A stretch of DNA of 64,000 nucleotides from Alphaproteobacteria bacterium. GTDB taxonomy: Bacteria; Pseudomonadota; Alphaproteobacteria; TMED109. The notes below the pieces were generated by a model. That model was not told the origin of the DNA. It searched no databases and was given only the letters and a program-made list of their open reading frames with translations. The stretch covers positions 1 to 64,000 of the forward strand of contig JAJDWH010000035.1 of assembly GCA_022825705.1 (NCBI GenBank), read 5' to 3'. Numbering within the stretch: position 1 is the stretch's first letter; every line of letters starts with the position of its first letter. The position numbers and the translations under genes are program-made. Of this stretch, positions 2,175 to 56,266 are shown piece after piece.

Positions 2175-4190
2175 ATGCGCGGCATCGGTGGGAGCACCTT
2201 GCGTGGTGGCCAGACGGTCTTCCACGGCATCCGCATGTGGGGGCAGTTGCTGCAGGCCGGGATGATGCTGGGCGCCCTCGTGGTCGTGGCCGTGCCGGCT
2301 TGGAACCTCTGGCACACGACCACGGGCGCCGACTGGTACGCGACCGGCCTGCTGACGCTGGCCGAAGCCAAGCTCGCGATCGGCTACCAGCCGGATTCGG
2401 GTCAGGTCGTCCGCGACGCGGGCGGCACCCGGCGGGTGCTCACGATCCGCACCATCGCCTCCTCGGTGCCGGCCGAGCGCATCCGCGAGCGGATCCTCGA
2501 CGAGATCATCCGGAGCGCGTGGCGCGGCGGCCAGGCGGGGGCCGGCGTGATCGCGCTCTTCCTCGCCTGGTTCTGGTACCGCGGCGTGCAGCTCGGGCGC
2601 AAGCACCGTGTCCGGGGCGCAGAACTCGTGACCGCGGCGCAACTCCGCCGCCGCATCCGGCCGCTCCACCGGCGCGCTCTGGAGAGCCTGCCGGGCACGA
2701 AGCGGGACCGCGCCTACCGGCTGGCCAGTATCCCGTTTCCGACGCGAAGCGAGACCCAGCACACGATCGTCTCTGGCACCACGGGCTCCGGCAAGACGGT
2801 GCTGATCTCCGATCTCGTCTCGCAGATCCGGGCGAAGGGCGAGCGCTGCGTCATCTACGACAAGATGGGCTCCTACACGCGCGCCTTCTTCGATCCCGCG
2901 CGCGACGTGCTGCTCAACCCGCTCGACGCCAGGGCGCCCCGGTGGTCGCCGTTCCTCGAGGCCCGGAACGCCCGCGACTTCGACATGATGGCGGTGGCCC
3001 TCATCCCGCAGCAGCGCGACAGCGCCGATCCGTTCTGGGTGACGGCGGCCCGGCAATTGTTCGCCAACGGCGCCGCGGTCCTCGCGCAGAAGGGCGTCAC
3101 CGCGAACCGGGTCCTCGTCGACCACCTCCTGAAGGCCGACCTCACGGCGTTGGCGCAGGCGATGGAGGGGACGGTCGCGCAGTCGATCGTCGATCCCGAC
3201 AACCCGCGCACTGCGCTCAGCGTACGTGCCATGCTCACCGCCAACTTGTCGGCGCTCGAGGTCCTGCCGGACGACGGCGTGCCGTTCTCGATCCGGGAGT
3301 GGGTTTCCCGTGAAGACCAGGACGGGTTCCTGTTCCTCACCTCGCGTGGCGACCAGCACGCGAGCCTCCGGGGCCTGATCTCGACCTGGCTCGAGATCGC
3401 GGTCAACGCGATGCTCTCGCTCGACCAGGCCGACGACCGGCGCATCTGGGTGATCCTCGACGAGCTCCCGACGCTCCACCAGGTGCCGTCGCTGCAGCCC
3501 GGGCTCGCCGAGAGCCGGCAGTTCGGCGGCTGCTTCGTCCTTGGCGTCCAGGTGGCCTCGGCGCTCCGTGATCTCTACGGGCGGAACGGCGCCGAGACCA
3601 TCTCGGGCCTCTGCGGCACGCGCGTTGTGCTCGCCGCCCCGGACCGTGACACCGCCCAGTGGTCGGCCGACAGCCTCGGCCGGAGCGAGGTTGAGGAGGT
3701 GGCCGAGAACGTCAGCTACGGCGCCAACACGATCCGCGACGGGGTGTCGCTGACGCCCCGGCGGGAACTCCGTGCGCTGGCGCTCCCTGCCGACATCATG
3801 CGGCTCCCCAACCTCCGCGGCTTCCTCAAGTTCCCGGGGCCGTACCCGGTGGCGTCGATCAGGCTCAGGCCGGTTGACCGGCCGGTGCGCGCCCCCCGGT
3901 TCGTGCCGCGCGATGACCGGGAACCCCCGAACGCGTCGGGTGAAGCCCACGTCCCGGCATCCCCGGCGGGCGCAGCCGACGAGCTGCCCTGGCCAGATGA
4001 GCCGGTCTCCGGCCGCGGCGAAAGCGTGCCTCAAGAGCCTGCCGGCGAGATGAAAACTGCGCCCGCGGACGTGGACAACATCGCGGCGCCGGTGCCCGAC
4101 CGCCCGGCGGCTGTTCCGGAAACAGCCCGCGGGGCGACCCCGCCAGGGCACGCGCCCGCGCCGTCGGCCGTGACGGACGGATGGGCCTGA
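2175..4190 (+). CDS. traD: Type IV coupling protein TraD
   Basis: This 671-aa protein is a VirD4/TraD-type coupling ATPase that links the relaxosome to the type IV secretion channel. Two N-terminal membrane segments lie near residues 25-46 and 118-137. A Walker A motif (GTTGSGKT, about residue 201) and a Walker B motif (IWVILDELPTL, about 425) define the RecA-like motor. The C-terminal 130 residues are Pro/Ala/Glu-rich and end in GWA, as expected of the TraD tail that docks the relaxase. The length is close to that of F TraD. The stop codon is one base before the traI start, so TraD and TraI are probably translationally coupled. The gene is intact. Confidence 0.92.
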   Translation: MRGIGGSTLRGGQTVFHGIRMWGQLLQAGMMLGALVVVAVPAWNLWHTTTGADWYATGLLTLAEAKLAIGYQPDSGQVVRDAGGTRRVLTIRTIASSVPAERIRERILDEIIRSAWRGGQAGAGVIALFLAWFWYRGVQLGRKHRVRGAELVTAAQLRRRIRPLHRRALESLPGTKRDRAYRLASIPFPTRSETQHTIVSGTTGSGKTVLISDLVSQIRAKGERCVIYDKMGSYTRAFFDPARDVLLNPLDARAPRWSPFLEARNARDFDMMAVALIPQQRDSADPFWVTAARQLFANGAAVLAQKGVTANRVLVDHLLKADLTALAQAMEGTVAQSIVDPDNPRTALSVRAMLTANLSALEVLPDDGVPFSIREWVSREDQDGFLFLTSRGDQHASLRGLISTWLEIAVNAMLSLDQADDRRIWVILDELPTLHQVPSLQPGLAESRQFGGCFVLGVQVASALRDLYGRNGAETISGLCGTRVVLAAPDRDTAQWSADSLGRSEVEEVAENVSYGANTIRDGVSLTPRRELRALALPADIMRLPNLRGFLKFPGPYPVASIRLRPVDRPVRAPRFVPRDDREPPNASGEAHVPASPAGAADELPWPDEPVSGRGESVPQEPAGEMKTAPADVDNIAAPVPDRPAAVPETARGATPPGHAPAPSAVTDGWA

Positions 4191-4191
4191 C

Positions 4192-7100
4192 ATGCTGTCG
4201 ATCGGTGCCATTACCTCGGCGGCCCAGGGCGCGTCCTACTACGAGAAGGACGGGTATTACGCGAAGGACGATCCGGAGCACCGGGACGCCAGCGCCTGGT
4301 TCGGGAAGGGTGCCGAGGGGCTGGGGCTCAGCGGGCCCGTCGACCCGGAAACCTTCCGCGCAATCCTCGAGGGCAAGGTACCCGACGGCTCCGGGACCGA
4401 GCTGGGCAAACGCGGCAGGGACGGCGAGATCACGCACCGGCCCGGCCGCGATCTCACGTTCTCCGCGTCCAAGTCCGTCTCGATCGCGGCCCTCGTGGGC
4501 GGCGACGACCGCATCGTCGGTGCCCACGACCGGGCGGTGCAGGCGACGCTCGCCTGGGTCGAGAAGAACGCGGTCCAGACCCGGATGTGGGACCCGGAGA
4601 CCGGTCGCATGGTTCACGTAGGCGGCCAGAAGTGCGTCGTCGCGACATTCCGCCACGACACCTCGCGCAACCTCGATCCGCAGCTCCATACCCATTCCGT
4701 GCTGGCCAACATGGTCCAGGGCGAGGACGGCAAGTGGCGGACGATGGCCAACGAGAAGCTCTACGACTCGAAGATGCTGATCGGCGCCATCTACCGGAAC
4801 GAGCTCGCCGCCGGGCTCACGCGGCTCGGGTACGACATCGAGAAGACGCACGCGGACGGTCGCTTCGAGCTTGCCGGCGTCTCCCGCGAGGCGATCACGG
4901 CGTTCTCGACCCGCAGGGGCGAGATCGAGGCGGCGATGGAAGCGCGCGGGCTCGACCAATCGGCCGACAACCCCCGCCACGCCGAGCGCGCGGCGTTGAT
5001 GACACGGGCCACGAAGCGGGAAATCGACCGCGACGAACTCCGTCACGTGTGGCATCGGCAGGCGGCCGACCTGGGCCTCGACGTCGGCGGGTTCGTCGCC
5101 GGTGCGCTTGCCCGCCGCATCGAGCAGGAGAGGGGATCGGGGAGCCGGGTACAGGACTTCGTGCCGGGCGGCGCTCTCTCGCCGGAGCCGGCGCTGAATC
5201 CCGTTGCCGACCCGGCGCCGGCGGCGAAAACGGACAGGCGGCATGAGGGGCGAGTGGCACCGGTTTCGGGCAATGAGCGGGACACGCCGCCGGACCCACC
5301 GAACGCAGTTGAACGACCGGGGCGCCTGCCGACCGGGAAAGCCGCACCGGCGGGGCCAGAAGAGGCGCTGCAGGATCGCGGCACGGTGAGCTCCTCTGTG
5401 GCGTGGGCGATGGCGCACCTTTCGGAGCGCGCGGCCGTATTTGCGCGGGCGGATCTGCTCGCCGCAGCCCTGACCCACGCCCCGGGCAGGCACGCCGTCG
5501 GGGACGTCGAACACGAGGTGGCACGGCTGGAGAAGGCGGGAGCGCTGCACGCGGTGACACTGCCGGGGGCCCGGGACTCGCTTGCGACCGACCGCACGGT
5601 CGGGGAGGAGCGCGAGACCATCGCCCTGATGCGCGCGGGCGCGGGCCGCGGGCAGGCCCCGATGCGCCGCTGGGCGGTCCGCGATCACCTCCACAAGTCG
5701 TCGCTCACGGTTGGACAGAGGGACGCGGTGAAGCTGATCCTGTCGGCGAAGGACCGGGTGGTGAGCGTGCAGGGCTACGCGGGGACGGGGAAGACTACCA
5801 TGCTCGACCGGGCGCGCGCGCTGGCGGAGAAGAAGGGCTGGCGCATGGTGGGTCTCGCGCCGTCCGCGTCGGCGGTCAAGACGCTCGCCGCCGAGGCCAG
5901 CATCGAGTCGCAGACCTTGCAGGGGTTCCTCGCCCGCAACGCCGGCGTGGCCGCGGGGCGCCTCACGAAGCACGGCGCGCGCGAGATGCGCGCAGCTTTC
6001 GCGAAGACGATCCTGGTGGTCGACGAGGGCTCGCTCGCCTCGACCATGCAGGCTAGGGACCTGCTGCGCATCGCGGACGAGCTCCGCGTCCCCCGCGTCG
6101 TCTTGGTTGGCGACGCCAAGCAGCTTGACGCGGTCGACGCCGGGAAGCCGTTCGCCCAGTTGCAGGCTGCCGGCATGCAGACGGCCGTCATGGACGAGGT
6201 CATGCGCCAGCGCGACCCGGCCCTGAAGGAGGCGGTCGAGGCGAGCATCAGGGGCGACATCGGCCGGGCCTTCGGGAAGCTCGGTGCCAACGTGGCCGCG
6301 GTGCCGCGGGGCGGGATCGCGGCGGCGGTGGCCGCGCGCTGGCTGGCGCTGGCGCCGGAGGTGCGGGAAAAGACCGGCGTCATGGCCCCGAGCCATGACC
6401 TCCGCCTGAAGATCAACGGCCATATCCGCGAGGAGCTCGCCCGCGAGGGATGGCTCCACGGGCCCGTCGTGCAGGTCGAACGGCTGGTTTCGAAGGGCTA
6501 CACCAATGCCGAGAAGGCGCTCGCGGGCAACTATGCGAAGGGCGACGTGGTCGCCTTCTACCGAACCTACCGGCGGATCGGCGTCGAGAAGGGGGACGAG
6601 CGCCGCGTCGTGGGCGTCGACGGCAGGCGCCGCGCGGTGCTGCTGAGCGACGGCAAGGGCGGGACCGTCGCCTGGAAGCCGTCGCAGGTCGGCGGCCTCA
6701 AGGGCGGCACCGAGGTGTACCGGTCCGCCGGGATCGAGCTCCGCGCCGGTGACCGCATCCGCTGGACGCGGAACGACGACGGCCTGGGCGTGGTCAACAG
6801 CCGCACCGCCGAGGTGCTGGGCGTCGGGCAGGGCCGTGTCGCGTTCCGCCTGGAGGACGGGCGGCGGCTGGAACTGGTGAGAGGCGACCCGCAGCTCCGG
6901 CATCTCGACCACGCCTGGGCCTCTACGGTGCACGCTTTCCAGGGCCGCACGGTCGACAATGTGATCGCCGCAATGGAAGCGAGGCACCCCCACCTGACGA
7001 CCCAGAAGAGCTTCTACGTGGAGATCAGCCGCGCACGCGAGCACGCCGAGCTGGTGACTGACGACGCGGCCGAGCTCCGCGCGCAGCTCCAGGCGGTCAC

Positions 7101-7317
7101 GGGCGCGCGCATCGCCGCACTCGAAGGCATCGGCGAGATGCCGGTGGCCGGGTCGGAGCGGGCACCGGAGACCGGTGGAGCGCGCGGGAAGGCGTCAGGA
7201 AAAGCACCGGGGAACGGAGCTGACGGCAGAGATGCCAGCGCAGATGCGCGGGCAGCGGAGCCGAATGCGCCCGCCCGGGACCGCGGCCGGGGCGCCGGGC
7301 TGGACCTCGAGCTGTAG
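4192..7317 (+). CDS. traI: MobF-family conjugative relaxase-helicase TraI
   Basis: This 1041-aa protein nicks oriT, stays bound to the 5' end and unwinds the strand for transfer. The N-terminal TrwC/MobF relaxase domain shows paired tyrosines near residues 16-17 and 22-23 and the metal-binding histidines H155, H166 and H168 (RHDTSRNLDPQLHTH). A variable Pro/Ala linker (about 310-400) precedes a RecD-type helicase with Walker A (GYAGTGKTT, about 528), Walker B (LVVDEGSLAS, about 607) and the motif WASTVHAFQGRT. The length resembles TrwC (about 970) rather than F TraI (about 1750), so the extra F helicase domain is absent. The gene follows traD by one base. It is intact, so the element may still be mobilisable. 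Confidence 0.93.
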   Translation: MLSIGAITSAAQGASYYEKDGYYAKDDPEHRDASAWFGKGAEGLGLSGPVDPETFRAILEGKVPDGSGTELGKRGRDGEITHRPGRDLTFSASKSVSIAALVGGDDRIVGAHDRAVQATLAWVEKNAVQTRMWDPETGRMVHVGGQKCVVATFRHDTSRNLDPQLHTHSVLANMVQGEDGKWRTMANEKLYDSKMLIGAIYRNELAAGLTRLGYDIEKTHADGRFELAGVSREAITAFSTRRGEIEAAMEARGLDQSADNPRHAERAALMTRATKREIDRDELRHVWHRQAADLGLDVGGFVAGALARRIEQERGSGSRVQDFVPGGALSPEPALNPVADPAPAAKTDRRHEGRVAPVSGNERDTPPDPPNAVERPGRLPTGKAAPAGPEEALQDRGTVSSSVAWAMAHLSERAAVFARADLLAAALTHAPGRHAVGDVEHEVARLEKAGALHAVTLPGARDSLATDRTVGEERETIALMRAGAGRGQAPMRRWAVRDHLHKSSLTVGQRDAVKLILSAKDRVVSVQGYAGTGKTTMLDRARALAEKKGWRMVGLAPSASAVKTLAAEASIESQTLQGFLARNAGVAAGRLTKHGAREMRAAFAKTILVVDEGSLASTMQARDLLRIADELRVPRVVLVGDAKQLDAVDAGKPFAQLQAAGMQTAVMDEVMRQRDPALKEAVEASIRGDIGRAFGKLGANVAAVPRGGIAAAVAARWLALAPEVREKTGVMAPSHDLRLKINGHIREELAREGWLHGPVVQVERLVSKGYTNAEKALAGNYAKGDVVAFYRTYRRIGVEKGDERRVVGVDGRRRAVLLSDGKGGTVAWKPSQVGGLKGGTEVYRSAGIELRAGDRIRWTRNDDGLGVVNSRTAEVLGVGQGRVAFRLEDGRRLELVRGDPQLRHLDHAWASTVHAFQGRTVDNVIAAMEARHPHLTTQKSFYVEISRAREHAELVTDDAAELRAQLQAVTGARIAALEGIGEMPVAGSERAPETGGARGKASGKAPGNGADGRDASADARAAEPNAPARDRGRGAGLDLEL

Positions 7318-7398: not shown

Positions 7399-7788
7399 AT
7401 GAACCGGAATATGGTCCGGCGACCGGTCGGCGAGGACGGGAAGTGGGGAAAGCTGACGCCGCGGACAATCCGGTTCCATGACCGGGACTGGGACCGGATC
7501 GAGACCTACGCCGTCATGCGGGGCATGACCGTCACGGAACTGATCCGCGCCACGGTCCTGACGGCGCTCGGCGAGGAGCCCGGGCTCACCGATTCGGGTG
7601 GCCGGCTCACCCGGCAGATCGAACAGATCTTCCGGTACACGCACATCATTGCGACCGCCCTGCGCGATGACATGCTGAAGAACGGCCGTGGCGACGAACT
7701 GGAGGAGCTGGTCCGGTCGGCGCGCGAGCTGCAGCGTGAGCTAAACAAGCGCGCTGCGGCCCGTCCGGACCAGGCCTCCAGGGAGTAA
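7399..7788 (+). CDS. Ribbon-helix-helix-like accessory DNA-binding protein
   Basis: The protein is 129 aa. Residues 20-60 read as a short strand (TIRFHDRDW) followed by two helices (DRIETYAVMRGMTVTELIRA), the layout of a ribbon-helix-helix fold. A helical C-terminus follows. It starts at ATG 7399, behind a GGAGGCGAAAG ribosome-binding site, 81 bases after traI. Small proteins of this kind next to MobF relaxases (TraY-, TrwA- or NikA-like) bind oriT and assist nicking, or repress the transfer operon. The palindrome-rich DNA immediately downstream is the obvious target. Exact family not recognised; the DNA-binding role is inferred from fold pattern and place. Confidence 0.7.
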   Translation: MNRNMVRRPVGEDGKWGKLTPRTIRFHDRDWDRIETYAVMRGMTVTELIRATVLTALGEEPGLTDSGGRLTRQIEQIFRYTHIIATALRDDMLKNGRGDELEELVRSARELQRELNKRAAARPDQASRE

Positions 7789-8023
7789 AACACACCGGGA
7801 TCGGTGCCCGACCGGCGGGATACGGAAGCACCGGCGGCCGAGAACGCTCCCGACTGCTGGCAAACGCGGCACCGGACTCGACTGGAAGCGGGGCGGAAAC
7901 GACACCGGAATGGGCCCGGTTTGCGGCCGGTGGAGCGATGCGCGTCAGCGATAGAGCGTGTGTCAATGCCCGGACAGGGCGCGGATCGGGCGGGATTTGC
8001 CCGCTTCGGAAACCGCCCGGCGC

Positions 8024-8116
8024 GTATGCTCGCGAGCATACGGCGTATGCTCCGGAGCATACAAAGGCGGCAGGGCAAGCGAATACAGGGCCCTGCGTGT
8101 ATGCTCGCGAGCATAC
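8024..8116. repeat. Three copies of an 18-bp palindrome, putative oriT/operator/partition site
   Basis: Copies at 8024-8041 and 8099-8116 read GTATGCTCGCGAGCATAC; the copy at 8045-8062 differs only in the central four bases (CCGG for GCGC-type centre). The first two centres are 21 bp apart, two helical turns. The third is 54 bp further and extends to a perfect 26-bp palindrome at 8095-8120. The conserved half-site is GTATGCTC. The array lies 236 bp downstream of the ribbon-helix-helix-like gene in DNA without a convincing gene. Spaced identical palindromes are typical of binding sites for dimeric regulators, relaxosome accessories or ParB/Omega-like proteins. Confidence 0.75.
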
Positions 8117-8140
8117 ACGCGCCCCTCATAGCCGAGGCGC

Positions 8141-8171
8141 CGTCAGGCACCTGAAGTGCCCGTCAGGGCAC
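8141..8171. other. Two overlapping, mutually exclusive hairpins
   Basis: GGCAC-(5)-GTGCC at 8146-8160 and GTGCCC-(4)-GGGCAC at 8156-8171 share the GTGCC arm, so only one can form at a time. The direct repeat CGTCAGG(G)CA flanks them. Relaxase recognition hairpins next to a nic site look like this. Position, downstream of traI and beside the palindrome array, fits oriT, but no nic consensus is recognised. Confidence 0.45.
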
Positions 8172-8243
8172 GCCATAGCGCACATGCGCGCATCCGCAGG
8201 GACCTGCGTCGGGTGTGGTCCCGAAACGCCGAAGGGCGTCTCC

Positions 8244-8416
8244 ATCCCGCTTCCTGGCTGCTCAAACGATCAGGCGAAGCAAACCAATTTGTAACTGGCA
8301 GTTAGCCTGAGCGGCGCTTGAGCGACCGCGTCCGCGACGCACCTCCGGAAACGGTTCCCGATCCGCCACGCGGCTTCCGGGCGGGAGTGTAGGAAGCGGG
8401 AGGTAATAACACAATG
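8244..8416 (+). repeat. Noncoding 174-bp repeat, copy A (upstream of higBA-1)
   Basis: This sequence aligns over its whole length, with a single one-base gap, to the reverse complement of 46077-46250. I count about 139 matches in 174 positions by hand. No frame is conserved. Shared blocks include CTGGCAGTTAGCC, GAGCGGCGCTTGAGCG, ACGGTTCCCGA and a GCTTCC-(13)-GGAAGC hairpin. Both copies point toward a higBA operon, which begins 150 bases past this copy. Confidence 0.8.
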
Positions 8417-8529
8417 CAGAAAGATGCACGCTCACGCACTGGCAGCGTCATTTGCTCGGTCTGCGCCCTCGGAGGGCACGGACGCCCCACCGTAATGAAC
8501 GCGAGCATGAGTTTGTCCGTCAGCATCCT

Positions 8530-8555
8530 TTACGGAAAGCGTAAGAAGAGTTACG
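8530..8555 (+). promoter_or_regulatory. Probable HigA operator upstream of higB-1
   Basis: TTACG-(5)-CGTAA is a perfect inverted repeat at 8530-8544, and a further TTACG half-site lies at 8551-8555, just before the higB start at 8566. Antitoxins of the HigA family repress their own operon through such sites. The assignment rests on position and symmetry. Confidence 0.55.
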
Positions 8556-8565
8556 GTCGGCGCAC

Positions 8566-8844
8566 ATGATACGGAGCTTCAGGGATCGGGAGACGCGCCG
8601 CTTCTTCGAGGGGCGACGCGTCGCGGCGTTTCATGGCTTCACCAATCAGGCAGTGCGCCGACTGCTCCTGCTGGACAGCGCAGAAACGCTCGGAGACCTT
8701 GCCGCATTGCCGAGCAACCGGCTGGAGGCGCTGCGGGGCGACCGCGCCGGTCAGCACAGCATTCGGATCAACGTGCAATGGCGCGTCTGCTTCCGGTGGG
8801 CGGATGACGGGCCATTAGACGTGGAGATCGTGGATGATCACTGA
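8566..8844 (+). CDS. higB: HigB/RelE-family toxin
   Basis: The 92-aa protein shows the compact RelE/HigB fold signature: LRGDRAGQHSIRINVQWRVCFRW followed by the C-terminal VEIVDDH. HigB toxins cleave mRNA at the ribosome; the basic residues and C-terminal His match the family. The ATG at 8566 is the first start after the operator. The antitoxin gene begins 11 bases after its stop, giving the toxin-first order typical of higBA. It lies directly behind the conjugation module and likely stabilises the element. It is only distantly similar to the second HigB at 45714-45986. Confidence 0.88.
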   Translation: MIRSFRDRETRRFFEGRRVAAFHGFTNQAVRRLLLLDSAETLGDLAALPSNRLEALRGDRAGQHSIRINVQWRVCFRWADDGPLDVEIVDDH

Positions 8845-8855
8845 GGGAGTCTGAC

Positions 8856-9188
8856 ATGAACGCAAGGAACGGCATGAGGCCGGTGCATCCCGGCGAAATC
8901 CTGCGCGGCGAACTCGACGAGCTCGGGCTGTCGGCCAATGCGCTGTCGAAGGAGCTGGGCGTCCCGGTGAACCGGGTGACGATGATCCTGAACGGCCAGC
9001 GTGGGGTGAGCGCGGACACCGCGCTGCGGCTCGCACGGTATTTCGGGACGACGCCGCAACTCTGGCTGAACCTGCAAAAGACCTGGGAGCTTCGCCAAGC
9101 GGAGATCGCGGCGGGCCGCGAGATCGCAAAGCGCGTGACGCCCCGACAGTCGGCGGCAACGGGCGCGATGACCGATGCCCGTCCCTGA
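8856..9188 (+). CDS. higA: HigA-family antitoxin
   Basis: The 110-aa protein begins with the HigA signature MRPVHPGEILRGELDELGLS and continues with an XRE helix-turn-helix (ANALSKELGVPVNRVTMILN, then GQRGVSADTALRLARYFG). It then has the aromatic WLNLQKTWELR segment found in plasmid-maintenance HigA proteins. It neutralises HigB and represses the operon. Its last 14 bases overlap the start of the mrr-like gene in another frame, so the restriction gene may be cotranscribed with the toxin-antitoxin pair. Confidence 0.88.
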   Translation: MNARNGMRPVHPGEILRGELDELGLSANALSKELGVPVNRVTMILNGQRGVSADTALRLARYFGTTPQLWLNLQKTWELRQAEIAAGREIAKRVTPRQSAATGAMTDARP

Positions 9189-10106
9189 TTTCCAGTCGCT
9201 GATGCTCCCTGCCCTCAAGGCGTTTGCCGGTGGTGGGGAGCCGCCGCTTTCGGAAGTCCGCGAACGGATCGCCGCCGCGGCAGGACTCTCGGCGGAAGAT
9301 GTCGAGGAAGTGCTCCCGAGCGGCCGGCAGGCAATCTTTGTGAACCGTGTGAGTTGGGCCGTGATCTACATGGTGCGGGCCGGGTTGCTGGAACGGGTCC
9401 GTCGCGGTGTCTATCGGCTCACGGAAGAGGGTGAACGCCTGTTGTCCCGCGCGCCCCCGCACATCGACATGAACCTCCTTGGCGAGTATCCCGATTTCGC
9501 CAAATGGAAGCAGCGGGCGAACGCTTCGCTCCCCGGCAGGGCTGCGACACCCAAACCGAACGAGGAAATCTCCTACACGCCGGAGGAGGCACTGGACCGC
9601 GCTGCGCGACAGTTGAGCAGTGCCTTGGAGGCCGACGTGCTGCATCGGGTCCGCGATGCAGCACCGGCGTTTCTCGAACGGTGGTCGTCGATTTGTTGAT
9701 CGCGATGGGCTACGGCGGCGGCGATGCTGCGATGGGCCGTGTGACCGGACGTTCCGGCGATGGTGGAATCGACGGCACGATCCGGGAGGATGCGCTCGGC
9801 TTGGACGAGGTGTACGTGCAGGCGAAGAAGTATGCGGCAGGCAATGCCGTGGGCGAAGGCGACCTGCGCAACTTCGCAGGCGCGATCGACGCTGCGGGCA
9901 CGACCAAGGGCGTGTTCGTCACCACGTCCGGCTTTACGCGCGCTGCAAAAGACTACGTGGCGCGGAGTCCCAAGCGGATCGTCCTGATCGATGGCGATGA
10001 ACTGGCACGGCTCATGGTCCTGCACGGAATCGGCGTGCGAACGCGCCTTCCACGTTACGAGGTCAAGCGGATCGACGAAGACTACTTCGATCAGGACGCG
10101 CCGTAA
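9175..10106 (+). pseudogene. mrr: Mrr-type restriction endonuclease, frameshifted
   Basis: Two frames join into one Mrr protein. The first (9175 on) opens MPVPDFQSLMLPALKAFAGG with the winged-helix Mrr_N domain and reaches AAPAFLER. The second continues VVVDLLIAMGYGG and carries the Mrr catalytic domain (GRSGDGGIDGTI, then YVQAKKY, the D...QxK form of PD-(D/E)XK), ending EVKRIDEDYFDQDAP. The join is at 9679-9681, where one base is missing; the reading frame then hits a stop at 9697. Mrr cuts methylated foreign DNA. Apart from this base the gene looks complete (about 310 codons), so a recent mutation or a sequencing error is possible. Confidence 0.85.
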
Positions 10107-11549: not shown

Positions 11550-13053
11550 ATGGATTGACCTGTCAACCTGCAACAAGATCCAGTGGTCGTGGGGCCCGTC
11601 CCGTGTCTGGGAGCCGGAGCGGCAGCGCTTGCAACGACGGTAGATCACTCTGATATCCGCGGATTGGTTACCGCCTGACCTTTCTTCGTCGTGGAGCTGC
11701 CTCCCTCTAGCGGCGTGGGTCGTCCGGGTGCGAGCCCGGCGCCACGTAGTGTCATCGAGGGTTCTCCTGACCGGCGCTGGCCGCTCCGGCTGCCAGACAC
11801 GGGCCCCGGCCCGTGTCGCGACGGCTGCTGTGACGTGGGGTGATCTCATGCGCTCGCGCGGGGCCGGACGTCGACCGTGCGGGCGATGGCCCACAGGTAG
11901 CCGGCCAACTCTCGGGCGATGGCGGTGGCGACCTTGCACGCGGGCTTCCCGGTCCGGGCGAGTGTCCGGTAGCGTCCGCACAGGCGTTTCTGCGCCTTCC
12001 AGGCGATGGCCTGGACCTCGGCGGTGGCGTGGCCGCCCTTGCGCTGCAGGTGGTCGGTCTGGCGCGCCGGGAAGCGATAGCTCCAGGCCGCTTCGACAAG
12101 CACTCGGCGGGCGTGTCCGTTGCCGGTCTTGGTGATCGCTCCCTGCCGGCGGCGCGCGCCGGACGAGTGCTCGCCGGGGATCAGGCCGAGGAAGCCCATC
12201 AGCTGCCGCGGGTGGTCGAAGCGGGTGAGGTCGCCGAGCTCGGCCGGCACGGTGACGGCGGTCAGCAGGTTGACGCTCCGCAATGCCATCAGCGCGAGTG
12301 CGACCGGGGCCAGGGACCAGCCGGGCACGGCCGTGCGGATCTGCTCATCGAGCCCCGCCACCCGGTCGCCCGCCGCGGTGACAGCGTCGACATACTCCTG
12401 GAACACGATCTGCTGGACGGGCTGGGCAAACGACTGGGCCTGCAGCCAGCGCGTGCTGCTGGGTCCACGCGCTCTTCCCCTCCCGGTAGACCCGGCCGTG
12501 GCGCAGCAGGAACGCGCTCAGGCGCTGGCGCGCCTTGAGCTGGGCAGCCTTCATGTCCTCGCGCGCCCGCGTCAGGTCGCGGATCGCCTCCTGCTCCGGA
12601 CCCGGCACCCAGACCGGGGTCAGCTCGCCGGCACGGAGCAGCCGGGCCAGCGTCAGCGCGTCGCGCCGGTCCGTCTTCACCCGCTCGCCCGGCTTGCGCG
12701 GGACCAGGCCCGGCGCGACCACACGGCAGCGATGACCCATCTCTCTCAACGTCCGGTACAGGCCGTAGCCGCAGGGGCGGGCCTCGTAGCACAACTCCAG
12801 CATCTGCCCGTTCGGGCCCAGCTTCGCCAGCAGCTTCCGCATCGCCGCCGGACGGTGCGCGATCACCCCGAACGACGTCACCTCGCCACCACGCGGACGG
12901 GCCACCGCCACCGCGATCGTCTCCTTGTGGACGTCGAGCCCCACATACGCGCTACACTTGCTCATGACCTGCCCTCCTTGAGGTGGCACTGCCTGCCTGG
13001 TCTCCACCGGGGAACGTAACCCACGGTTTCAAGGCAAGGGCAGGTCAATCCAT
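11550..13053 (-). mobile_element. IS110/IS1111-type insertion sequence
   Basis: The element is about 1504 bp. Its ends carry inverted repeats ATGGATTGACCTGTC (11550-11564) and, reversed, ATGGATTGACCTGCC (13039-13053), 14 of 15 identical. Terminal or subterminal repeats place it nearer the IS1111 subgroup than typical IS110. It holds one transposase gene, frameshifted, read leftward. About 280 bp of noncoding DNA follows the transposase at the left end. It inserted directly behind the HEPN-like gene; no target duplication is evident. Confidence 0.8.
11846..12965 (-). pseudogene. IS110-family transposase, frameshifted
   Basis: The N-terminal part starts at ATG 12965 (MSKCSAYVGLDVHKETIAVA) with the DEDD-type catalytic start of IS110 transposases, and continues KTDRRDALTLARLLRAGELTPVWVP. 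The C-terminal part in another frame has the transposase_20 signature LLTAVTVPAELGDLTRFDHPRQLMGFLGLIPGE and GNGHARRVLVEAAW. The break is near 12440-12450 (after KSAWTQQHAL), where one base too many shifts the frame; the correct continuation reads WLQAQSFAQPVQQIVFQEYV. Otherwise the protein would be full length, about 370 aa. Probably inactive, or the shift is an assembly error. Confidence 0.85.
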
Positions 13054-13231: not shown

Positions 13232-16200
13232 ATGCAGGTGAACCACAACGAGCCGGTGCCCCTCGTGCGCCGCTTTTGCCCTGCCTGTCAGTCAGGTGAC
13301 GATTCGGACGAACACGAAGTCCGGGCGCTTCTGGGGTATCCCAACTTCAAGACTTGGCGAGAAATCGACACGGGATACCGCTCCGTGATCTTGGCGGAAG
13401 CTGGAGCCGGCAAAACATTCGAAATGCTAGCCCGGGCGCGACACGTTGAGCAGCAAGGCAATCCGTCGTTCTTAATTCGCATCGAGGATATCGTCGATAC
13501 CTTCGAAGACGCGTTCGAAGTCGGAAGCGCGGAGTCGTTTGAGCAGTGGCTCGATTGCCAGAAAGAGGCTTGGTTCTATCTCGATTCCGTTGATGAGGCC
13601 AGGCTCGGCAATCCAACCTTGTTTGAGAAGGCGATCCGCCGCTTCTCCGCCAAGATTCGGTATGCACAGTTGCGAGCCCGCGTTTGTATTTCCAGCCGGC
13701 CATATGCCTGGCGCGCGAAGTCCGACCGGGAACTGGTGCTTCGATATCTGCCATTCAAGAAACCGCTGGCCGAATGCAGTGGCAAGAATCAAGAATCGAC
13801 TGAACGAACTGAGTGTCCCCGTGATGCGCTTGAGGTTCTCCTCCTGCAGCCTTTGGAAGAAGACGATATTCGAACGTTCGCTGCACACCGCTCGGCGCCA
13901 GATATCGACCGCTTGATTAGGGAGCTGGAGCGGACCAACCTAATGGGAATGGCGGGCAGACCCTTCGACTTGGAGGAGATTCTCGACAAGTGGAAAGCGC
14001 GCCGCGCACTCGGCGGCCGGAGGGAGTTGCTGCGTCACAGCGTTGGACGAAGACTCGGCGAGCCGGACCCGGACCGAAGTATCCGGCAGCCATTGAATCC
14101 GGAGAAGGCACGCATCGGCGCGCAGGCACTCGCTGCAGCGGTCGTGCTTACCGGCGTGGCCGGCATCCGCGTCCTAGACGGCGGACATGCTCGCGCCGGC
14201 ATCGATCCTCAGGCCGTCCTCATCGACTGGCAGCCGGAAGAAGTTCAACACCTTCTGGCGAGGGCCATCTTCGACGATGTGACGTACGGGTGCGTGAGAT
14301 TCCGCCAACGCGATGTTCGCGAGCTATTGGCAGCCGAATGGTTCTGCGAACTGCTGCGGAGGGGTCACTCGCGCCATGCGGTTGAAACGTTGTTCTTCCG
14401 CGAACAGTACGGGGTGGCGTTCGTTTCGCCGCGCCTGCGTGTCGTACTGCCTTGGTTGATTCTCGAGGACCATAGGTTCCGCAATCGGGCACTGGATACA
14501 GATCCCGAAATCGCGATGGAGGGTGGCGACCCCGCCCTACTGCCATTGCCGGAACGAAAGAAGATCCTTGCCGACGTCGTTGACCGAATCGCCAGCGGCG
14601 AGGATGACGGCGCCGCACGCGATAACCATGCGATCGCGCGCATTACCCAGCCCGACCTCGCTCCCGAAGCGGGTGCGCTAATCGGCAGGCATGGTGACAA
14701 CGACGATGCCATCTTCTTTCTCGGCAGGCTCGTGTGGCAGGGGGACATGGTGGAGTGCGTGCCGCCAATGATTGATCCAGCCGCCGACCCTACGCGTGGG
14801 GTGTTTGCCCGCGTTGCGGCTGCGCGGGCAGTCATGACCTGCGGGACGAATGCACATAAGGCGACGCTCTGGAACCGCCTGTGCGCCCCCCAGAGGCTTC
14901 CGCGCGAACTGCTCGCAGAACTGGTGCAGGACACTGAAGCCAATGCTGACTCCGTATCTCTGCTTCTTGAATCGATCGAGAAGCTAGCTCCGTACGAGCG
15001 CTTCCGGGTGACGGGATTGACGCTGGCCCTGCACGGTTTCATTGAGCGTTTGCCGCTACCTCTGAACACGAACATTGAGCAACCGCTTCCCATGCTGGTA
15101 GCCGGCTTCGCTGCCATCCTTCGCCGACCGCCCTTCATCAAACCGAGTGAATGCCATGTTTCAGCAGAGTTGTCTTGGCTTCTGGGGCCCGCTCTCCATG
15201 CCGTAGAGAGGCTCGTCTTGGGGCGCGCCGAAGCGGCAATGTGGGAACCCTCCCTGGCAATCTTGCTCAAGGCCCCGAGCGCTCGCCGCTGGCATGATCG
15301 TGGCATCGACGAATACAAGGACCGATTGGACGAACTGGTGCCCGCCTGGCCAGTACTAAATGACTGCCTGTTTTGGAAGGACGTGAATTCCGCCCGAATC
15401 CGGCTCGAAGACGAGGGAAGGAAACTCGACGACGATTGGCCGGTGCAGTGGCCGAAACGCTACTGGTCGTTCGGCCCTGACAGTTTTCCCCGGATACTCG
15501 AATGGCTGAGCGAGCGCGAACTGGAAGACGATCGGCTGGTCGCTCTCTCACTTGTATTCCGTGTGTACCGGGAAGCGGAGGAGCCCGCCGAATGGCTTGC
15601 ACGGCTACGCGCCTCGGTGATGAACGACTCGGTGCTGGTCGGGCGACTGAACAGACTGCTGAATCCTCCCGTGTCGAAGGAGAACCAAGAGTGGCAGCGG
15701 CAGGAGGCAGAGTGGAGGCAGGAGCGCGAGCGCCAGGGTAAGGAGGACCGAGAACAAAGGTTGGCTTGGGTAGCCAGCCTCAAGGCAGACCCGAATCTTG
15801 TTCGGAGCCCGCCCGGGCTGCAGCCAGGCGAGGTCAGCTCGGATCAATGGTGGCTCCTCGCGGAGATCGAAGGTGACGGCCTACGGACCAACCGTGCCCA
15901 AGCGGCGAATTGGCGGTCACTGATCGACGAGTTCGGAGATGACGTGGCCGTTGCCTATCGCGACGCAGCTATGGCGCACTGGCGACACTACAGACCTGGG
16001 ATCAGGTCCGAAGGGGCGGATATGCGTTCCATTCCGGCCTCCGTTGTGTTCGCCGTGGCAGGGCTTGCGATCGAGGCGAATGAAGTGGAAGGCTTCCCTG
16101 AACATCTCGGCGTGTCCGAGGTGCGCCTGGCGCTGCGATACATCGTTTGGGAACTGAACGGCTTTCCGGCTTGGTTGGAAACCATGTATCGGGCCTGCCC

Positions 16201-17563
16201 AGAAGCCGTGATGGAAGCCATCAAGGCTGAACTCTTCTGGGAGTTGGCGCACACCGAAGCCGGTCAGCCGATGCACTACATTCTGCATGACCTTGCCGTC
16301 TACGCTCCGTGGTTGCACGGTTCGCTTGTCACGCCGCTTCTGACCTGGCTCCGAGCAAGCGACCCGCCAAGCGACGATGCGCTGCGCCATATTCTCCACA
16401 TACTCAAAGGCGGTTGCTCGAATCTGGTAGAGCTTGCTGCCCTTGCCGAGGTCAAGGCCACGCAGGGGACCGTCGACGAGCATCGCCCGTATTGGTACGC
16501 CATTTGGGTCGACGTCAATCCAGACACGTGTATCGAGGCTATTGCGGACCTGCTTGCCGGGCTCGAGCGGGAGGAGAGTTCACGCATCGCGCAGATTTTC
16601 GTCACGGCGCTGATGGGCGGCCGCCATGGTATGGCCGAGGGGTACAAGTTCGGAAAGTTTCTGACGCCGAGGCACCTCAAACGCTTATATGTGCTTATGC
16701 ACGAACATATTCGTGTTAGCGAGGACGTAGACCGGGTCGGCAAAGGCATCTATTCGCCCAAACTGCGGGACTACGCCCAAGACGCCCGCAACAGGCTGTT
16801 CAAGCTGCTTTCCGACATTCCCGGTAAAGAAGCGTATATCGCGCTCGCGGAACTCATTAAGGACCATCCCAATCCGGGTCACCGGCCCTGGATGGCGAAG
16901 CGGGCCCGCCATCGTGCGCAAGCGGACGGCGACATCGAGCCGTGGACCGCCGAACAGGTCTGCGAGTTTTCTTCCTATCTCACCACCACTCCAGCAACCC
17001 AGCGCCAGCTGTTCGATTTGACGGTCGCCCGTGTAACCGATCTCAAGAACTGGCTCGAGCAGGGCGATGACAGCCCGTACCGCACTTGGCAGAGGGCGGC
17101 AGATGAGCGCGAAATCCGAAATTTGGTAGCAGGTTCGCTCAATCAGAATTGGGGCAATGCGTTCACTATCGCGCAGGAACACGAGCTCGCAAATAGCCAG
17201 CGCCTGGACATCCGGCTACAAAGCCCGAACGTCCCATTGCCGATTCCTGTAGAGCTCAAACTGCTCGACATGAAGTGGAGTGGGCCGAAGCTTTGTGAAC
17301 GTCTTCGCAACCAGCTAGCCGGCGACTACCTGCGGGAGGCAGATGAGCGCTACGGCGTGATGCTCCTAGTCTGGAAGGGTAAGAGGCCCGGGCGGCAATG
17401 GTTGATCGATGGCAAGCGGGTCGGAGTATCTGGCCTTTGTCCTGCTCTCAAGCAATATTGGGAAACCGTTTCCAACTTCTTCCCCAACGTCGCAGCCGTT
17501 GAGGTGGTCCTGATCGATTTGACGACGAGGGCACTTCGGTCTAGCAACCAACACTGCGGGTAG
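13232..17563 (+). CDS. STAND-like P-loop NTPase with C-terminal PD-(D/E)XK nuclease-like domain
   Basis: This is a single intact protein of 1443 aa. The N-terminus has a short CPAC motif (17-20) and a P-loop ATPase with Walker A AEAGAGKT (55-62), a Walker B-like WFYLDSVDE (114-122) and a sensor-like CISSRPYAW (152-160), as in NACHT/STAND proteins. Residues 400-1280 are long and mostly helical, with no clear short repeat, and would be a recognition region. The C-terminus carries E1316/E1318, D1326 (RLDIRL), E1341-x-K1343 (PVELK) and Q1361 in a helix (RNQLAGDYL), the E-D-ExK-Q order of PD-(D/E)XK nucleases. An AAGGGG site precedes ATG 13232. Its place among restriction, toxin and HEPN genes suggests phage-triggered DNA cleavage. 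Motifs are seen; function is inferred. Confidence 0.8.
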   Translation: MQVNHNEPVPLVRRFCPACQSGDDSDEHEVRALLGYPNFKTWREIDTGYRSVILAEAGAGKTFEMLARARHVEQQGNPSFLIRIEDIVDTFEDAFEVGSAESFEQWLDCQKEAWFYLDSVDEARLGNPTLFEKAIRRFSAKIRYAQLRARVCISSRPYAWRAKSDRELVLRYLPFKKPLAECSGKNQESTERTECPRDALEVLLLQPLEEDDIRTFAAHRSAPDIDRLIRELERTNLMGMAGRPFDLEEILDKWKARRALGGRRELLRHSVGRRLGEPDPDRSIRQPLNPEKARIGAQALAAAVVLTGVAGIRVLDGGHARAGIDPQAVLIDWQPEEVQHLLARAIFDDVTYGCVRFRQRDVRELLAAEWFCELLRRGHSRHAVETLFFREQYGVAFVSPRLRVVLPWLILEDHRFRNRALDTDPEIAMEGGDPALLPLPERKKILADVVDRIASGEDDGAARDNHAIARITQPDLAPEAGALIGRHGDNDDAIFFLGRLVWQGDMVECVPPMIDPAADPTRGVFARVAAARAVMTCGTNAHKATLWNRLCAPQRLPRELLAELVQDTEANADSVSLLLESIEKLAPYERFRVTGLTLALHGFIERLPLPLNTNIEQPLPMLVAGFAAILRRPPFIKPSECHVSAELSWLLGPALHAVERLVLGRAEAAMWEPSLAILLKAPSARRWHDRGIDEYKDRLDELVPAWPVLNDCLFWKDVNSARIRLEDEGRKLDDDWPVQWPKRYWSFGPDSFPRILEWLSERELEDDRLVALSLVFRVYREAEEPAEWLARLRASVMNDSVLVGRLNRLLNPPVSKENQEWQRQEAEWRQERERQGKEDREQRLAWVASLKADPNLVRSPPGLQPGEVSSDQWWLLAEIEGDGLRTNRAQAANWRSLIDEFGDDVAVAYRDAAMAHWRHYRPGIRSEGADMRSIPASVVFAVAGLAIEANEVEGFPEHLGVSEVRLALRYIVWELNGFPAWLETMYRACPEAVMEAIKAELFWELAHTEAGQPMHYILHDLAVYAPWLHGSLVTPLLTWLRASDPPSDDALRHILHILKGGCSNLVELAALAEVKATQGTVDEHRPYWYAIWVDVNPDTCIEAIADLLAGLEREESSRIAQIFVTALMGGRHGMAEGYKFGKFLTPRHLKRLYVLMHEHIRVSEDVDRVGKGIYSPKLRDYAQDARNRLFKLLSDIPGKEAYIALAELIKDHPNPGHRPWMAKRARHRAQADGDIEPWTAEQVCEFSSYLTTTPATQRQLFDLTVARVTDLKNWLEQGDDSPYRTWQRAADEREIRNLVAGSLNQNWGNAFTIAQEHELANSQRLDIRLQSPNVPLPIPVELKLLDMKWSGPKLCERLRNQLAGDYLREADERYGVMLLVWKGKRPGRQWLIDGKRVGVSGLCPALKQYWETVSNFFPNVAAVEVVLIDLTTRALRSSNQHCG

Positions 17564-56153: not shown

Positions 56154-56266
56154 CCGGGAGTCTGGTCGGCCGGTCAACCGGAACGTGCGCCTCATGTGTA
56201 CGCTGATGCGGTCGGGCGCGTGCGCCGCCTGTATTCGCCCGAGCAGACTCACCCAGGGTTGTCACC

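Follow-up and report, generated by a model that had tools for sequence, protein, structure and literature searches.

A predicted MOBF oriT in an alphaproteobacterial genome, with palindromes that may dock a small ribbon-helix-helix protein

The stretch of DNA analysed here (the window, 64 kb in all) carries at 8024-8217 what is very probably the oriT of a MOBF conjugative or integrative element, in which three palindromes would be bound by a ribbon-helix-helix (RHH) protein and the word that they repeat would serve as an address label. The palindromes are most likely docking sites of the small RHH protein encoded beside them. Palindromes, gene linkage, the nic sequence, hairpin covariation and the replacement of one word by another among relatives are what we observed; RHH binding, nicking, the direction of transfer and the role of the word in specificity are features that we infer from the DNA and its relatives. 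The relevant features are these:

1621-2130, + strand: ssb, single-stranded DNA-binding protein, head of the transfer cassette (Pfam SSB, E=4.2e-30)
2175-4190, + strand: traD/trwB-type coupling protein (Pfam TrwB_AAD_bind, E=7.9e-140)
4192-7317, + strand: traI/trwC-type MOBF relaxase-helicase (Pfam TrwC relaxase, E=2.5e-86, and helicase domains)
7399-7788, + strand: rhh, 129-aa RHH protein with beta-strand PRTIRF, proposed relaxosome accessory protein (NikA profile match; linkage to traI in relatives)
8024-8041, no strand assigned: palindrome 1, predicted accessory site, starting 193 bp 5' of the predicted nick
8045-8062, no strand assigned: palindrome 2, predicted accessory site, 21 bp from palindrome 1 and starting 172 bp 5' of the predicted nick
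8095-8120 (core 8099-8116), no strand assigned: palindrome 3, predicted accessory site nearest to nic, conserved in relatives; its core starts 118 bp before the predicted nick
8121-8133, + strand: conserved block GCCCCTCATAGCC, directly 3' of palindrome 3 and identical in the seven A/B-class loci
8196-8207, + strand: nic hairpin GCAGG-GA-CCTGC, equivalent of IR2 of R388, with covarying arms in relatives
8208-8217, + strand: nic sequence GTCGGGTGT^G, predicted nick between 8216 and 8217, laid out as in the F plasmid record
8217-9188, + strand: start of the predicted leading region (direction from nic polarity)
8566-8844 and 8856-9188, within the predicted leading region: higB and higA toxin-antitoxin genes (HigB and HTH Pfam matches)

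Three perfect palindromes of the form GTATGCTC-NN-GAGCATAC are present in the window, with starts 21 bp (two turns) and 54 bp apart, and the third of them can be extended to 26 bp, its 13-bp arms being 100% complementary. An earlier note on this DNA had claimed three 18-bp palindromes, two of them spaced by two helical turns and one extended to 26 bp, and all of this was confirmed. The half-site GTATGCTC occurs six times in the 64 kb, always inside the three palindromes; shuffled sequences gave a mean of 1.01 copies and at most four, so that six was reached in none of 100 shuffles. When up to three mismatches were allowed in the 18-bp pattern, one further site was found in the window, at 56231 (three mismatches). 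The block GCCCCTCATAGCC, perhaps an additional protein site, is as well conserved as palindrome 3 in A/B-class loci, and a CCAACA-type block stands at that place in other classes.

The array lies 3' of rhh, in the same-strand gene order ssb-traD-traI(MOBF)-rhh; the relaxase and RHH genes named as neighbours in the earlier note are indeed there, as a TrwC-type relaxase and a 129-aa RHH-like protein. The same order of four genes was found in loci L019, L020 and L034, and rhh lies between traI and the array in the window, L005, L024, L028, L029, L034 and others. The best plasmid relatives of the window TraI are about 36% identical to it and are annotated MobF. The 129-aa protein has an RHH-like start, and its Pfam DUF6290 and NikA-like matches fall below the curated cut-offs; a profile built from 25 RHH relatives matched NikA (2ba3) at E=0.0014, the sole PDB sequence match below E=0.01. 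An AlphaFold2 model of the protein is of low confidence (pLDDT 65), and a Foldseek search with it gave nothing at E<=0.001, NikA 2ba3 coming second at E=1.8. Among 72,556 plasmid records, no RHH homologue was matched at E<=0.01.

RHH proteins are often repressors, and MobC of RA3, an RHH protein of the relaxosome, reportedly autoregulates, so the array could be pictured as an operator, with the RHH protein repressing its own operon or leading-region genes from there. This is very unlikely: the array sits 3' of the operon to which rhh belongs, there is no half-site before ssb or anywhere else in the window outside the array, and no sigma-70-like promoter was detected in 7700-8700, in a scan that is weak for alphaproteobacteria.

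The feature runs on past 8120, and a nic site that was absent from the earlier note belongs to it. About 100 bp 3' of the array is a predicted MOBF nic site, GCAGG-GA-CCTGC-GTCGGGTGT^GG (8196-8218). When the DNA downstream of rhh was aligned, 32 of 33 loci proved to share a small hairpin that runs directly into GTNNGGTGT and a purine (GG replaces GT in two of them) and lies 80-95 bp to the 3' side of the block next to the array; L025 is the exception. The arms of the hairpin differ among loci, with GATGC, GCTGC, CCTGC, GGTGC, AGTGC, AATGC, GGTGA and GCTGT as proximal variants, and they covary: pairing is perfect over at least 4 bp in all 28 distinct loci and over 5 bp in 23 of them, whereas shuffling the proximal arms among loci (2000 shuffles) left a mean of 8.3, and at most 18, perfect. 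A scan of 46 loci for motif plus hairpin downstream of rhh (or traI) gave exactly one site, on the sense strand, in 32, and none in 413,883 bp of control DNA (antisense and upstream); because the motif had been defined on many of the same loci, it is the control and not the hit rate that tests it. The 14 loci without a match are L025, L030, L036, L038, L044, L045, L053, L054 and L068-L073, of which L030, L038, L044, L045 and L071 have less than 2 kb of downstream sequence and L025 has the array. In the window the bare motif has eight matches on either strand, and the hairpin accompanies only the one at 8208. According to the available part of a published account, MOBF nic sites have G17, T18, T23 and a purine at 26, with 9 nt from arm to nick (PMC4176350); each of these is found in the window nic. 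Thus the relaxase gene in the cassette, an inverted repeat directly 5' of nic and the nic positions, the features by which we looked for a MOBF oriT, are all present.

An alternative placement of the nick, within the conserved block (GCCCCTC^ATAGCC, 8127/8128) and with the 26-bp palindrome as the relaxase hairpin, was rejected, because in 32 of 33 loci the MOBF motif and its covarying hairpin are located another 80-95 bp to the 3' side. It is the combination of nic and covarying hairpin that leads us to regard the locus as an oriT, and the palindromes as its putative accessory-protein array. The polarity of nic suggests that the + strand is nicked and that the higBA side would lead into the recipient, the transfer genes entering last.

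Several other features of this neighbourhood deserve mention. The predicted leading region includes a gene for an Mrr-type methyl-directed restriction enzyme (9504-10106; PADLOC mREase_IV, E=8.9e-45), and an IS110-type transposase, matched in its N-terminal domain, is encoded on the minus strand at 12345-13007. Beside the oriT element is a gene for a 1443-aa protein (13232-17563) with a P-loop-like GAGKT near its N-terminus, for which no match was found in searches of Pfam and PADLOC. Just 3' of nic in paralogous elements (L005, L024, L021, L026), a stretch CACTTCCGCA(A)GGAAGTGGGAATGACCTTGTGCGCAGCAC is conserved with small variations; it is absent from the window, and may act as a promoter of the leading region or as a priming site.

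Iterated palindromes together with an RHH protein are also found at partition loci, and a ParG-like or Rep-like protein might on that model use the array as a site for plasmid partition or replication. We regard this as extremely improbable, since no parA or rep gene was seen beside the array when the ORF list was inspected by eye, and since it is nic and rhh that the array accompanies in relatives.

The distribution of the palindrome also links it to transfer genes. At up to one mismatch there are six copies in the organism's own genome (3.49 Mb), each belonging to a transfer locus or a remnant of one: three in the window, two at C4:137257-137330, where they adjoin another traI and another rhh (83% and 59% identical, respectively), and one at C23:1536, where the contig measures 3 kb and its rhh is truncated. 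Seven genomes of the genus contain 23 palindromes at the same threshold (the reversed control gave 0), all 23 sharing a contig with a traI or rhh homologue and lying within about 5 kb of it; three of the seven genomes have none. A search of 28 genomes of the family found matches in the same four genus genomes and in none of 21 genomes of other genera, and an exact copy was present in just one of 289 genomes of the class, namely the organism's own. Palindromes do, then, adjoin homologous traI genes in related elements, as the earlier note had proposed to check, and the scattered genome-wide repeat that it had named as a refutation was not seen. A dispersed intergenic repeat was accordingly rejected as a reading of the array. 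Where an operon ends, perfect palindromes could still suggest terminator hairpins, which, like a scattered intergenic repeat, we consider scarcely credible here: no terminator match was found at the array, the palindrome is absent from elsewhere in the genome and the class, and in two groups of relatives (those with the GTGTATC and GTAGTAC words described below) the corresponding sites are mainly direct repeats.

All 27 named RHH relatives come from metagenome-assembled genomes, 26 of them with alphaproteobacterial names and one (L030) labelled Chloroflexi. The latter, the record of Chloroflexi bacterium IRC2_bin_8, carries a traI and an rhh that belong to this alphaproteobacterial family (75% and 66%, respectively), and either a recent transfer or a mis-binned contig may account for its label. 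Genomes G000 and G003-G005 have three to ten MOBF relaxase matches each, a repertoire of related conjugative elements that is unusually large.

Relatives of the window locus keep its layout and change its letters, with GTATGC, GTGTATC, GAGTTGC or GTAGTAC as the repeated word. GTATGC takes the GTATGCTC form in the window, L028 and L029, is mostly GTATGCG in L005, L022, L023 and L024, appears as GTATGCTC without the two central bases in L034 and L065, and is found also in L067 (GTATGCAAAT), L006 and L037. GTGTATC is the word of L039, L046, L047, L049, L050, L051 and L060 (direct repeats and one hairpin), GAGTTGC that of L040-L043 and L048, and GTAGTAC that of L061-L063 and L035; sites of the GTGTATC and GTAGTAC classes are for the most part direct repeats. 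In a blind 7-mer search of the DNA downstream of rhh (37 loci, 40 shuffles each), the word topped the list in 16 loci, with none of 40 shuffles as high, and in L006, L037, L050, L060, L061 and L035 one to four of the 40 shuffles scored as high. At L040, L042, L043, L063 and L067 the word scored no better than chance within its locus, and a different repeat ranked first in L048; for these six loci the word was taken from the alignment of hairpin and block. The remaining nine of the 37 loci have no word. The repeats tend to lie at about 28, 81-85, 101-106 and 127-129 bp from the block edge, a pattern spotted post hoc, and one that L034, L065 and the GAGTTGC class fit poorly.

In the RHH fold it is the beta-strand that reads DNA, as in Arc. 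At the 26 loci in which both word and beta-strand could be read, PRTIRF went with GTATGC (10/10), PRSIRF with GTAGTAC (3/3), TRGIRF with GTGTATC (7/7) and TRSIRF with GAGTTGC (5/5), and a single IRGIRF was paired with GTATGC; because there are near-copies among the loci, these pairings are not independent events. Each beta-strand motif is thus paired with one word, and GTATGC with two motifs (PRTIRF and IRGIRF). L006 and L035, which have a word and an unreadable strand, fall outside this count. An exception to the rule is L073 (PRSIRF), in which no GTAGTAC cluster was found in 14 kb. A different kind of departure is seen in L021, L026 and L027, MOBF loci of the same genus that have no detectable rhh, yet possess the GTATGC word and a nic site. 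L021 carries copies of GTAGTAC besides its GTATGC word. In genome G004, elements with the GTATGC word, elements with the GTAGTAC word and RHH-less GTATGC elements are found side by side.

To which protein does the word belong? If the palindromes were sites of the relaxase TraI (or of its helicase part), with the RHH protein binding elsewhere or acting only as a bridge, the GTATGC word retained beside traI in the RHH-less L021, L026 and L027 would be readily explained, and words do cluster on the TraI tree as well, the relaxase-domain and whole-TraI trees both needing four changes of word (15 loci; least possible three). TraI, on the other hand, has a canonical site of its own in the nic hairpin (8196-8217). 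The word also parts company with the relaxase: L061, whose relaxase domain is 91% identical to that of the window, has GTAGTAC, while the less closely related domains of L005 (87%) and L034 (88%), and even those of L026 and L027 (67-68%), go with the window's GTATGC. Moreover, the RHH tree, made with the beta-strand left out, follows the words slightly better, requiring three changes, which is the minimum (16 loci shared with the relaxase set); this tree has 38 rows, and ten without a known word (L030, L036, L038, L044, L045, L052, L053, L068, L072 and L073) were not counted. Approximately unbiased (AU) tests of the GTAGTAC loci as a single clade were mixed, with rejection on the relaxase domain (p=0.0215) and none on whole TraI (p=0.376). 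We consider ownership by TraI unlikely; the trees lean to the RHH protein, by one event of difference, which falls short of proof. The reading of the earlier note, in which the palindromes would be bound by the 129-aa protein or by the relaxosome, gains support as a prediction, from the nic site with its covarying hairpin about 100 bp to the 3' side and from the way the word tracks the RHH beta-strand, with L021, L026 and L027 as the counter-examples.

Taking the RHH protein as the probable owner of the word, we envisage that the 129-aa protein, as dimers or tetramers, occupies the three GTATGCTC palindromes, whose spacing would put them on one face of the helix, and that the resulting complex forms the accessory part of a relaxosome, guiding TraI to the small hairpin and nic some 100 bp further on. 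TraI would cut the + strand between 8216 and 8217 and remain on the new 5' end, and the strand would exit with the leading region (higBA side) first and ssb-traD-traI-rhh last. The word may be likened to an address label: related elements have another word and another version of the RHH protein, and such different pairs would cause each relaxosome to assemble on its own oriT. A bolder idea, which we offer tentatively and think somewhat doubtful, is that MOBF elements of these alphaproteobacteria carry rhh and the array as an address module that can be exchanged: word and beta-strand would change jointly and be swapped between relaxases, and the RHH-less elements L021, L026 and L027 would borrow, in trans, the RHH protein of another element in the same cell.

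An oriT location, a predicted nick and a direction of transfer can now be proposed for conjugative elements, mostly of metagenome-assembled alphaproteobacteria, that occur in several copies per genome. At least four words, each found in nature with its linked RHH proteins, are available on a common scaffold, and the writing and switching of relaxosome specificity, a question worked out for staphylococcal plasmids (PMC8136818), is therefore testable in MOBF elements. The kind of system is already known, as a MOBF oriT with RHH accessory sites; what is new here is the gene order, the hosts and the words. No paper on the oriT of this group, or on this word, was found in a literature search in which subscription papers were thinly covered.

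The closest precedent is the specificity of SmpO for its oriT in the pWBG749 family. In the portion of that work available (PMC8136818), SmpO is an RHH protein that binds two copies of a word in oriT; there are five oriT subtypes, the beta-strand reads the DNA, one substitution in it switches the word, and oriT subtype is incongruent with the other transfer genes. The likeness to ossA and ossB lies in an oriT-linked RHH protein, a related word at spaced sites and several oriT types (PMC8136818, same portion). As described there, the staphylococcal system has two sites with centres 65-67 bp apart, and ossB is within an inverted-repeat arm near the core (PMC8136818), whereas here there are two to four sites, often palindromic, and nic has a separate hairpin. 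Those plasmids are Gram-positive, and the present elements mostly alphaproteobacterial.

Plasmid F is nicked at its GTGGGGTGT^GG point. The F record (NC_002483.1) reads GCAAAAAC-TT-GTTTTTGC-GTGGGGTGT^GG in the gap that separates traM from the transglycosylase gene. TraY and TraM sites lie 5' of nic in the F oriT, going by the accessible sections of a recent account (PMC12117103), and the two systems thus have in common a MOBF relaxase, a hairpin leading directly into GTGGGGTGT^GG, and sites of RHH-type accessory proteins on the 5' side. F differs in using IHF, TraY and TraM, encoded elsewhere, and an array of 18-bp palindromes is not among the F sites named in those sections (PMC12117103). The nic hairpin arm, moreover, is 8 bp in F and 5 bp here.

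With the TrwA-TrwB-TrwC system of R388, so far as the parts available describe it, there are shared a TrwC-type relaxase, a TrwB-type coupling protein, an RHH accessory protein, a 5-bp IR2 arm and 9 nt to the nick (PMC4176350, PMC4853378). In contrast to R388, rhh and oriT are here 3' of traI. In its letters the window nic is F-like and not R388-like. The oriTs of F and R388 both have an IHF site placed between nic and the accessory sites. NikA of R64 (PDB 2ba3) resembles the RHH protein by the profile match at E=0.0014; NikA serves a MOBP relaxase, whereas the NikA-like protein of these elements is partnered with a MOBF relaxase. From the SmpO system, the closest precedent, the present locus is set apart by an array separate from the nic hairpin, by the position of rhh and oriT 3' of traI, by this partnership of a NikA-like protein with a MOBF relaxase, and by its host group.
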